Assembly (NCBI GenBank): GCA_025923195.1
Contig: JAICGJ010000041.1
Location: forward strand, 1 to 36,089
Reading direction: 5' to 3'
DNA: 36,089 bases
Source: Chryseolinea sp.
GTDB lineage: Bacteria; Bacteroidota; Bacteroidia; Cytophagales; Cyclobacteriaceae
Made by a program: the position numbers and the translations under genes. Below the pieces are notes generated by a model. The model worked only from the letters and a program-made list of their open reading frames with translations, was not told the origin of the DNA and did not search any database. Below, piece after piece: positions 25,974 through 36,089 of the stretch. Each line of letters opens with the position of its first letter. Positions within the stretch are counted from its first letter, which is position 1.

Positions 25974-27626
25974 TCAATTGAATTTCAAACGTTTGAAATA
26001 ATTGATTAACCCATTTGTTGAAGAATCATGTGAACTAATTTCTTCAGCCGATTTTAGCTCGGGCAGGATTTTTTTTGCCAGGACTTTACCCAACTCTACA
26101 CCCCACTGATCGAAGCTAAAAATATTCCAAATCACACCTTGAACAAAAATTTTATGTTCGTAAAGAGCAACCAGACTACCCAACGTCCGCGGTGTAAGAA
26201 GCTTGAAGATTATGCTATTACTAGGTCTGTTGCCATCGAAGATACGGAATGGTGCATGCCACTTGACCATTTCTGGAGTCATACCCGACGCCCGTAATTC
26301 TTCCTGAACTTCTTCGTAAGTTTTGCCCTTCATAAGGGCTTCAGTCTGAGCAAAAAAATTCGAGAGCAACTTGTCGTGATGATCACCAGAAGGATTTTGA
26401 CTAATGGCTGGAGCAATGAAGTCGCAGGGTATTAGTTTAGTTCCCTGATGGATTAGTTGATAGAATGCATGCTGGCCATTCGTCCCGGGCTCACCCCAAA
26501 TGATAGGACCCGTCTGATAGGTTACGGGTTTCCCGGTACGATCAATGGATTTGCCATTGCTTTCCATGTTCCCTTGTTGAAAGTAGGCGGCGAACCTGTG
26601 AAGATATTGATCGTAGGGAAGAATTGCCTCCGAAGCAGTGCCAAAAAAATTGTTGTACCAAATTCCTATGAGAGCAAGAATAACTGGAATATTTTTTTCA
26701 AAGGGCTCGTTTTTGAAATGATTGTCCATCGCATTCGCACCCTCTAATAGTTTCTCAAAGTTTTCAAACCCAATTGTGCATGCGATAGACAAACCAATGG
26801 ATGACCACAATGAATACCGTCCGCCAACCCAGTCCCAAAAGACAAACATATTTTGTGGATCTATTCCGAATCTGGCTACCTGCTCCTGATTTGTTGAAAC
26901 GGCAACAAAATGTTTGGCTACCTCGCCCTTGTTGTCGGTATTTTCAAGAAACCATGAGCGCGCAGACTCTGCATTTGTCATTGTCTCCTGAGTCGTAAAA
27001 GTCTTTGAAGCGATAATGAATAGGGTGGTCTCTGGATCGACGTTCTTAAGTGTTTCAACGATATGGGTACCATCTACATTGGATACGAAATGAGGTCTGA
27101 TATTTTGCCAATAGGGTTGCAAGGCTTCGGTTACCATGTATGGGCCAAGATCAGAACCGCCGATCCCAATGTTCACAATATCAGTGATTCGTTTCCCCGT
27201 GTATCCCTTCCACCGGCCTTGAAGCAAATTTTCAGAGAAGGTTTTCATTTGAGTGAGTACACGGTTCACCTCGGGCATGATATCCTCACCGTTGGAAAGT
27301 ATTGGTGTATTTGAACGATTGCGCAAGGCAATATGTAAGACAGCTCTGTCTTCGGTTTGATTGATCTTGTCGCCGTTAAACATGGCCCTGATAGCCTCCT
27401 TCAATTCTACTTCGTTGGCCAATGCTATAAGATCCTGCATGGTCTCTTCTATTATCAGATTTTTGGAGTAGTCTACCAGGATGTCGTCAAACATGATGTG
27501 CATCTTTGCGAATCGCTGAGGATCTTCCAAAAAAAGCTCGCGCATTGAGGTTGCCTGTAGTGACAAGAATTGTATTTCAAGTCGGCGCCAGGCGGAAGTT
27601 TCAGTAGGATTATGGATCGGTAACAT
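25974..27626 (-). CDS. pgi: Glucose-6-phosphate isomerase
   Basis: A 550-residue cytoplasmic enzyme interconverting glucose-6-phosphate and fructose-6-phosphate. It is of the long form used by many bacteria. Signature segments are [12 protein letters not shown] (154-165), SKTFTTQET (207-215), [11 protein letters not shown] (268-278) and [15 protein letters not shown], with catalytic E379 and H386. [12 protein letters not shown] near the C-terminus carries the catalytic lysine. It is the first gene of the pgi-pfkA-glucokinase operon. It diverges from the large adhesin-like gene over 161 bp in which no clear -7 element was found. Confidence 0.97.
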
Positions 27627-35217: not shown

Positions 35218-35652
35218 ATGACGACGAAACGTATCGCCCTGATAGCTCACGATAATAAAAAGAAGGAACTCATGGAATGGGTAAAATTCAACCGTGGCAT
35301 CATGCTCAATAGTGAGGTATTCGCGACAGGCACTACCGGGAAAATGATAGAAAATGAAGTTGGAATTACCGTCCGGTGTTTACAAAGTGGTCCGCTGGGT
35401 GGCGATCAGCAGATCGGCGCCCTGATCGCCGAGGGAAATATTGATATTCTGATCTTCTTTTGGGACCCGCTAGAGCCACTGCCTCACGACCCCGACATAA
35501 AAGCATTATTGCGGCTGGCTGTAGTATGGAATATTCCAGTTGCGTGCAACAGGGCGACCGCCGATTTTCTATTTACCTCGTCTTTGTTTTTTAGTGATTA
35601 TAAACGGAAAATGCCGGATTTCTTGGAATACAACAATAGAAAGATTGAATAG
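35218..35652 (+). CDS. mgsA: Methylglyoxal synthase
   Basis: A 144-residue cytoplasmic enzyme converting dihydroxyacetone phosphate to methylglyoxal and phosphate. The family is unmistakable: AHDNKKKELMEW (10-21), phosphate-binding ATGTTGKMIE (36-45), GPLGGDQQIGALIAEG with catalytic D63, FFWDPLEPLPHDPD (80-93), and VVWNIPVACNRATADF. Length is normal. The enzyme usually relieves sugar-phosphate build-up when phosphate is limiting, which suits a locus with pgi and pfkA, although those genes are 8 kb away on the other strand. It diverges from tex with a 77-bp gap. Confidence 0.96.
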   Translation: MTTKRIALIAHDNKKKELMEWVKFNRGIMLNSEVFATGTTGKMIENEVGITVRCLQSGPLGGDQQIGALIAEGNIDILIFFWDPLEPLPHDPDIKALLRLAVVWNIPVACNRATADFLFTSSLFFSDYKRKMPDFLEYNNRKIE

Positions 35653-35665
35653 GAATGGTGTGAAA

Positions 35666-35697
35666 TTTGTGAAAATTGAACACAAACAGTAAGTTTG
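35666..35697 (+). promoter_or_regulatory. Strong Bacteroidota-consensus promoter ahead of the tRNA-like repeat array
   Basis: TTTG (35666-35669), a 20-base spacer and TAAGTTTG (35690-35697) match the Bacteroidota promoter consensus TTTG - TAnnTTTG exactly. It lies 14 bp after the mgsA stop and points at the repeat array, whose first unit begins about 60 bases after the expected transcription start near 35704. No protein gene follows, so the array itself is the likely transcript. Confidence 0.6.
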
Positions 35698-35764
35698 CGC
35701 TCCTTTTGACAAAGGTCATTCACTGAAGCTTAATTCGGGAAATGCAGACGTGAAGAACGTAAAT

Positions 35765-35806
35765 GGCGCGGGTAGCTCAGGCGGTTAGAGCGCAGGATTC
35801 ATATCC
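35765..35806 (+). pseudogene. tRNA-Met(CAT) 5' half, array unit 1
   Basis: Acceptor 5' strand GGCGCGG plus one extra G, then TA, D-arm stem GCTC/GAGC, anticodon stem CAGGA and a loop with CAT at 35800-35802. The anticodon stem's 3' strand should read TCCTG, but after TCC the sequence runs into the palindrome at 35804-35819. No 3' half follows, so this is not a functional tRNA gene as it stands. Confidence 0.75.
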
Positions 35807-35819
35807 GCCAGCTGGCGGA
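35804..35819. repeat. 16-bp perfect palindrome, array unit 1
   Basis: TCCGCCAGCTGGCGGA is its own reverse complement. Its first three bases also serve as the start of the expected anticodon-stem 3' strand, so tRNA and palindrome are joined at TCC. Not seen elsewhere in the window outside the array. Confidence 0.9.
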
Positions 35820-35872
35820 CGAGGTTCAACAGAAAGGAAGAGTTGGAGGAGTTGAAAGTGGCAATAAAACGT

Positions 35873-35913
35873 GGCGCGGTAGCTCAGGCGGTTAGAGCGC
35901 AGGATTCATATCC
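35873..35913 (+). pseudogene. tRNA-Met(CAT) 5' half, array unit 2
   Basis: GGCGCGG, TA, D-stem GCTC/GAGC, anticodon stem CAGGA, with CAT at 35907-35909. Spacing to this point is canonical (7-base acceptor strand, two-base linker), unlike unit 1. It is broken in the same way at TCC. Confidence 0.78.
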
Positions 35914-35926
35914 GCCAGCTGGCGGA
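35911..35926. repeat. 16-bp perfect palindrome, array unit 2
   Basis: Same sequence as in unit 1, at the same place relative to the anticodon (two bases after CAT). Confidence 0.9.
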
Positions 35927-35978
35927 CGGGTTCAACAGCAAGGAAGAGTTGGAGGAGTTGAAAGTGGCAATAAAACAT

Positions 35979-36019
35979 GGCGCGGTAGCTCAGGCGGTTA
36001 GAGCGCAGGATTCATATCC
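35979..36019 (+). pseudogene. tRNA-Met(CAT) 5' half, array unit 3
   Basis: Identical to unit 2 through the anticodon (CAT at 36013-36015) and fused to the palindrome at the same point. Confidence 0.78.
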
Positions 36020-36032
36020 GCCAGCTGGCGGA
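36017..36032. repeat. 16-bp perfect palindrome, array unit 3
   Basis: Same sequence and position in the unit as in units 1 and 2. Confidence 0.9.
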
Positions 36033-36089
36033 CGGGTTCAACAGCAAGGAAGAGTTGGAGGAGTTGAAAGTGGCAATAAAACATGGCGC

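Follow-up and report, generated by a model that had tools for sequence, protein, structure and literature searches.

Small, stand-alone GIY-YIG proteins that are linked to many copies of a repeat are represented by Ssn, the site-specific single-strand nucleases of Neisseria and other bacteria, which reportedly cut that repeat; we know of no tRNA copies in the Ssn systems. Some integrative elements take tRNA genes as their attachment sites and reconstitute the tRNA. REPs are short palindromes, of which the GTAG kind flanks a RAYT gene, and the CGTC kind, found in Bacteroidetes too, is without a dedicated transposase and is recognised by a CGTC tag, an 8–9 bp stem nearly always starting with A/T pairs, and a CCA-like tail (PMC3733652). 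SegB of phage T6 is described as a free-standing GIY-YIG homing endonuclease located by tRNA genes, where it drives tandem amplification (PMC13096335).

We analysed contig JAICGJ010000041.1 (C41) of Chryseolinea sp. (assembly GCA_025923195.1), the whole stretch of 36089 nucleotides being referred to as the window. The array of broken tRNA-Met copies at its right end is a case of a recurrent and widespread arrangement in Bacteroidota, in which a GIY-YIG gene is located at a tRNA gene amid partial, often palindrome-bearing, copies. As far as could be found, this arrangement is undescribed: literature searches pairing GIY-YIG with tRNA genes, with palindromes, or with Bacteroidetes, and searches for five of the palindromes as letters, returned no account of it, most papers of subscription journals being outside the search. 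The sequence-only reading knew of no described system of this kind either.

The array and the neighbouring intact tRNA-Met gene

The right contig end contains a tandem repeat (35763–36089; period, 106; 3.1 copies; matches, 97%, in TRF), in which the array proper occupies the last 327 bp of the window and consists of units of 108, 106, and 106 bp followed by 5 nt of a fourth. Each unit runs from a tRNA-Met 5′ half through the palindrome TCCGCCAGCTGGCGGA to a T-arm scrap and a linker, so that the tandem 5′ halves with a 16-bp palindrome after the anticodon, first noticed from the sequence alone, are confirmed. Unit 1 (35765–35872, plus strand; 108 bp) carries one extra G in the acceptor strand of its tRNA-Met 5′ part, unit 2 (35873–35978, plus strand; 106 bp) begins with 38 nt of the intact tRNA-Met, unit 3 (35979–36084, plus strand; 106 bp) has the same sequence as unit 2, and unit 4 (36085–36089, plus strand) is cut after 5 nt by the contig end, the array going on to contig C59. 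The palindrome is perfect over its 16 bp in all three units (35804–35819, 35911–35926, and 36017–36032; no strand assigned). Because the contig breaks inside the array, the number of units is given as at least four. Two further perfect 16-bp palindromes in the window, at 283–298 (ACACAGGCGCCTGTGT) and 25983–25998 (TTTCAAACGTTTGAAA), are unlike that of the array. The tRNA scan proposed in the sequence-only reading gave no call in the window with either ARAGORN or Rfam (gathering threshold), and the array units do not form the cloverleaf with both acceptor strands that is expected of a tRNA gene.

The left neighbour of the array is mgsA, encoding methylglyoxal synthase (35218–35652, plus strand; NCBIfam NF003559, E 4.9e-64; synteny). 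Ahead of the array, a regular-expression search located a promoter-like site, TTG-N20-TAAGTTTG (35667–35697, plus strand), which resembles the Bacteroidota −33/−7 consensus. On the reverse strand of C59, part of the last unit (29430–29378) is followed by an intact tRNA-Met (29375–29302), with which units 2 and 3 are identical over exactly 38 nt, the split being just past the anticodon. In G015, a genome of the same genus, the neighbours on either side are the same, with a single tRNA-Met between them and no array; the order is the C41 left flank (mgsA), the tRNA-Met, and DNA resembling C59. Since G015 joins these three parts, C41 and C59 are most likely neighbours in the genome, and G015 is an empty site. 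A sequence similar to the promoter-like site precedes the single tRNA-Met of G015, and GTAAAT, directly ahead of unit 1, is found there as well, as expected if the extra units had entered at the anticodon with the 5′ half being rebuilt. With the intact tRNA-Met on C59 and both flanks shared with G015, the array is thus placed between the promoter-like site and the functional tRNA-Met gene; the sequence-only reading had described the array correctly and could not see the intact gene next door, which is on another contig.

The left flank on the mgsA side is common to all three same-genus genomes compared (G015, G093, and G136), and the right flank is matched in G015 only, the stretches of G093 and G136 compared having no match to C59 beyond the tRNA. 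In the single-contig genome G136, both upstream 5′-half and downstream 3′-half copies of tRNA-Met are present, and a motif scan of 3.5 kb detected no GIY-YIG ORF at the locus.

Palindromes and GIY-YIG genes at tRNA genes

The genome-wide count suggested in the sequence-only reading found the array palindrome at eight places in the 6.57-Mb genome and at none for the reversed control. Three of them are in the array, two are on contig C137 in pseudo-tRNA-fMet copies, and three are outside tRNA copies, one being inside the RNase P RNA. The two copies on C137 flank a GIY-YIG ORF, which is located beside an intact tRNA-fMet. Altogether six small and two longer ORFs of this genome match GIY-YIG, none of them on C41 or C59. 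By eye, those on C83, C194, C138, and C273 adjoin a tRNA gene or a broken copy of one, and neither was seen beside that on C152.

Related genomes were surveyed with the 106-bp unit, which matched 110 of 148 Cyclobacteriaceae genomes, many through the tRNA part alone. Thirteen of 20 loci were read as sequence, and in most of these, broken copies flank tRNA-Met and carry TCCGCC-N2..4-GGCGGA, or a near variant, in place of ACCCTGAGGT; a regular expression returned 42 such segments from the loci, including at least one chance match in coding DNA and one site listed twice. The upstream copies are 5′ halves and the downstream copies 3′ halves; after the latter, several genomes have a terminator-like hairpin and a GIY-YIG ORF, in some cases in tandem (L100, L170, and L249). 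Palindrome-bearing copies near tRNA-Met thus recur among the relatives, including the single-contig genomes G136 and G085. The upstream mini-units have linkers that differ between genomes, and contain no ORF even at loci having one. On the contig of Lunatimonas salinarum that carries locus L089 (G018:C122:332078-333259), nine tRNA-Met-like matches were found; the assembly lacks any exact anticodon arm belonging to an intact elongator tRNA-Met, and an N gap within the array points to a fault in the assembly.

Among 98 family genomes, 24 contain the pattern TATCCGCCN{1,6}GGCGGAC, at 78 places altogether (reversed control, 2). Fifty-nine of these are in a Met pseudo-tRNA by a strict rule and four more by eye, and the remaining 15 are dispersed away from tRNA copies, two of them inside the RNase P RNA of G066. 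The RNase P RNA genes with TCCGCC..GGCGGA palindromes are at L015:1047-1456 (contig C6 of this genome, G000) and L199:1518-1928 (G066). In G085 (loci L203–L205), four TATCCGCCACGGCGGAC sites share one fixed loop, with no tRNA call in the stretches examined, and possibly represent a REP-like family of that genome.

The association of the nuclease with tRNA genes was counted in two sets of loci. Set A was obtained by scanning named genomes with alignment A1, which confirmed at least 507 relatives; 79 loci were examined, all from Bacteroidota except L131 (Balneolota). Set B was obtained with the tRNA-Arg-linked protein of C83, which matched 82 of 247 genomes of the class; 30 loci among the matches were examined, the seed locus itself included. 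When the count was limited to loci whose flanks each exceed 600 bp (58/79 in set A and 24/30 in set B), a tRNA call was present within 600 bp of the GIY-YIG ORF in 47/58 and 22/24 loci, respectively, against a chance expectation of ~1% by arithmetic from 36 tRNA matches in 6.57 Mb, and in all 69 tRNA-adjacent loci the tRNA is on the same strand as the ORF. Eleven of the 58 loci and two of the 24 gave no call within 600 bp, three of the eleven having a tRNA-Met at 613–794 bp; every tRNA call at the 58 loci is within 1000 bp of the ORF, though most flanks extend to 2000. Among the 47 loci of set A, 45 calls are tRNA-Met, and the nearest call is a pseudo-tRNA in two (L107 and L144). The tRNAs of set A are all of the Met type, elongator or initiator, a bias that is partly by choice, because the seed alignment consisted mostly of Met-linked genes. 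The nearest tRNAs of set B are of eight amino-acid types (Arg, Leu, Met, Phe, Ser, Glu, Asn, and Ala). Of the 88 loci at which a tRNA call on the ORF strand lies no more than 900 bp away, 83 hold a partial copy of that tRNA nearby, versus 0/88 with the reversed-sequence control.

Full units including the ORF form tandem arrays at L249, L100, and L252. At L249 (G253:C9:906046-910389), ten GIY-YIG matches among those listed are arranged in tandem with a 457 bp spacing by an initiator-type tRNA-Met, with pseudo-tRNA pieces between them. At L180, from a Bacteroidia MAG, inspection by eye placed the palindrome, in inverted sense, in the D-loop of initiator tRNA copies, and the intact tRNA downstream of the nuclease.

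The split copies were examined for the stem at the break in 28 copies from 23 of the 88 loci, taking at most three per locus and counting identical ones once. A perfect stem of at least 6 bp is present in 23/28 copies, and 22/28 gave p≤0.05 against shuffles. The breaks are at tRNA positions 17–27, 33–53, and 50–66, the palindrome being in the D or T region in tRNAs other than the Met of the array. An ATCCG..CGGA palindrome is within 500 bp of the ORF in 67/79 loci of set A and 2/30 of set B, and in set A this near zone, 72.6 kb in all, holds 116 sites, versus 3 in the 131.9 kb lying beyond 1000 bp. The looser TCCGC..GCGGA is near 71/79 loci of set A and 5/30 of set B, and CCTGnCTG..CAGnCAGG near 2/79 and 8/30, at least 17/30 loci of set B matching neither expression. 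Stem pairs were counted over 70 set A loci, each represented by its most frequent palindrome, pairs 1–4 being fixed by the search and hence uninformative. At pair 5 there is a single mismatch and a single T-G; pair 6 reads C-G in 61, T-A in 8, and A-T in 1 (61/68 C-G and 7/68 T-A after dropping two chance-like loci). Some single copies break the palindrome pairs. Identical palindromes account for 95/138 pairs within a locus versus 146/2415 between loci, an agreement within loci that tandem duplication alone could explain.

The three linked proteins examined all match PF01541 (41.7–65.7 bits; curated cut-off, 22.6), and Tyr5, Tyr16, Gly18, Arg26, and Glu63 are invariant in all ten alignment rows. 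The conserved Tyr pair, Arg, and Glu have assigned roles in the GIY-YIG superfamily. NCBIfam gave one sub-cut-off match, for one of the three proteins, and the profile against solved structures matched two UPF0213 proteins and five sequences of SLX1, a structure-specific nuclease. No match was found in plasmid and phage collections for the one clade A protein tried, or among defence systems for the two proteins tried. The C137 nuclease, absent from the tree, was counted to clade A by alignment and context. With a pN/pS of 0.07–0.22 in all 15 set A pairs tried, the nuclease is under purifying selection, and we take the protein to be functional.

Among 21 close pairs, 14 have DNA in common at more than 700 bp from the ORF, an indication of vertical inheritance. 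The other seven share none, including L129/L135 with 92% identity over the element; this loss of flanks does not prove transfer, and the element gives the impression of being resident, not fast-moving. On the nuclease tree, 24 changes of tRNA label were counted, versus a mean of 44.9 and a minimum of 38 after shuffling, the tree being built on 80 columns with weak support. The pattern is sporadic, present in 24 of 98 family genomes and absent at this locus in G015.

Origin and possible function of the array

We consider it probable that the array is the tandemly amplified, nuclease-less part of an element that lives at tRNA genes and combines a GIY-YIG gene, palindromes, and tRNA copies. Its anatomy and location, the empty site, the association with tRNA genes, the conserved palindrome, and the selection acting on the nuclease are shown by the data; cleavage and mobility are what we infer. 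The full element comprises a GIY-YIG gene of about 80–95 amino acids on the strand of the tRNA and partial copies of that tRNA beside the intact gene, often with a palindrome in the D, anticodon/variable, or T region. At the present locus, the promoter-like site is followed by at least four units and then by the intact gene, as if insertion had occurred at the anticodon and the 5′ half had been rebuilt each time. The nuclease may recognise and cut the hairpin or a tRNA site, the position of the cut being equally conjectural, and that of C137, encoded at tRNA-fMet, perhaps acts on the array in trans; the palindrome-bearing TATCCGCCnnnnGGCGGAC is a candidate substrate of a clade A nuclease such as that of C137 or Marivirga L170. 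Recombination repair between the tRNA repeats would then duplicate and amplify the units, with the palindrome in the copies marking or masking the cut site and the cell retaining one working tRNA. That the array is an 'ORF-deleted' element is not proven, since C41 and C59 have no GIY-YIG match and mini-units are without an ORF even at ORF-bearing loci. We considered whether the linker might be what is left of the tail end of a GIY-YIG gene after its deletion, and dropped the idea, as the linkers of mini-units elsewhere differ and no ORF remnant was seen by eye.

The main rival is a resident host function, in which a beneficial, Ssn-like nuclease specific to sequence in single strands or hairpins would serve, for example, in processing transforming or replicating DNA, with the palindromes in the tRNA copies as its target array and the tRNA genes as a safe and constant home. 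The strong purifying selection on the nuclease, the flanks common to 14/21 close pairs, the resemblance to structure-specific SLX1, and the palindromes dispersed elsewhere would all suit such a role. It is nevertheless unlikely in view of the sporadic presence (24/98 family genomes, and none at this locus in G015), the many different tRNA hosts, and the tandem ORF arrays.

A structured tRNA-mimic RNA acting as a decoy, RNase substrate, or regulator, as proposed in the sequence-only reading, which would here be transcribed with tRNA-Met as a leader, was not supported and is very unlikely. Although the units stand between the promoter-like site and the tRNA, and the fold of the unit is slightly better than that of shuffled sequences (z, −2.53), that of the Lunatimonas unit is not (z, −0.58), and the fold test is weak because the intact tRNA-Met itself scores only −1.48; moreover, the linkers vary between genomes, the palindrome is in the D or T regions of other tRNAs, and the window has no tRNA call.

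We give still less credence to a passive REP-like palindrome that dropped into a tRNA copy and was amplified by ordinary unequal recombination, the nuclease being unrelated. Direct repeats do recombine, and palindromes are also present in RNase P RNA and at other sites, but their type tracks the nuclease clade (TCCGC..GCGGA, 71/79 in A versus 5/30 in B; CCTGnCTG..CAGnCAGG, 2/79 versus 8/30). The alternative offered in the sequence-only reading, an amplified tRNA copy holding a REP-like palindrome, is partly supported: its outline fits, and palindrome-bearing tRNA-Met copies recur elsewhere; it lacks the nuclease gene and the adjacent intact tRNA. An assembly artefact is extremely unlikely: the contig does terminate in the array, and Lunatimonas G018 has an N gap and is without the exact anticodon arm of elongator tRNA-Met, but like copies are inside the single-contig G136 and G085 and the complete Marivirga L170 genome.

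Returning to the element at tRNA genes, we tentatively propose, with slightly less than even confidence, an unrecognised class of bacterial elements, namely tRNA-resident GIY-YIG nucleases that would use palindrome-marked copies of host tRNAs as cut or donor sites across several Bacteroidota orders, their lineages switching tRNA species and palindrome types. If the proposal is true, such elements would stand to tRNA genes as REP/RAYT pairs stand to intergenic DNA, and tRNA loci would have a built-in means of amplification. In any case, an odd repeat is linked to a three-part partnership (nuclease gene, palindrome, and tRNA gene) seen across several Bacteroidota orders. This link raises two questions: do GIY-YIG proteins supply the enzyme that some palindromic repeats are missing, and do nuclease elements that amplify segments of tRNA reside at essential tRNA genes? 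The arrangement may also account for odd tRNA calls and for contig breaks at tRNA-Met in these genomes.

Comparison with described systems

The protein resembles Ssn in being a small stand-alone GIY-YIG protein linked to many repeat copies. With the elements that integrate at tRNA genes, the arrangement has in common that a piece of the tRNA is duplicated and one intact gene is left, whereas the units here (~100–460 bp) are too short for an integrase gene and have a palindrome at the breakpoint.

Like the GTAG REP/RAYT pairs, short palindromes flank the gene of a DNA-cutting enzyme; however, RAYT is a tyrosine transposase, and the partner here is GIY-YIG (PMC3733652). The palindromes differ further from the REPs of that account in having no GTAG or CGTC tag and in being mostly within tRNA copies (PMC3733652). 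They do not belong to the GTAG kind, with flanks that are usually TCATA..C and a linked gene for a GIY-YIG protein, nor to the CGTC kind, with no CGTC ahead of the stem TCCGCC in the listed contexts.

The likeness to SegB lies in a GIY-YIG nuclease encoded beside tRNA genes of many isotypes and in the tandem amplification of tRNA segments, the SegB repeats carrying a truncated nuclease gene (PMC13096335). Its main text contains no word starting with 'palindrom' (PMC13096335). The two systems differ in that the SegB case concerns a phage genome in which a full-length tRNA gene is amplified, whereas the copies described here are broken tRNAs, often marked with a palindrome, in bacterial chromosomes (PMC13096335).
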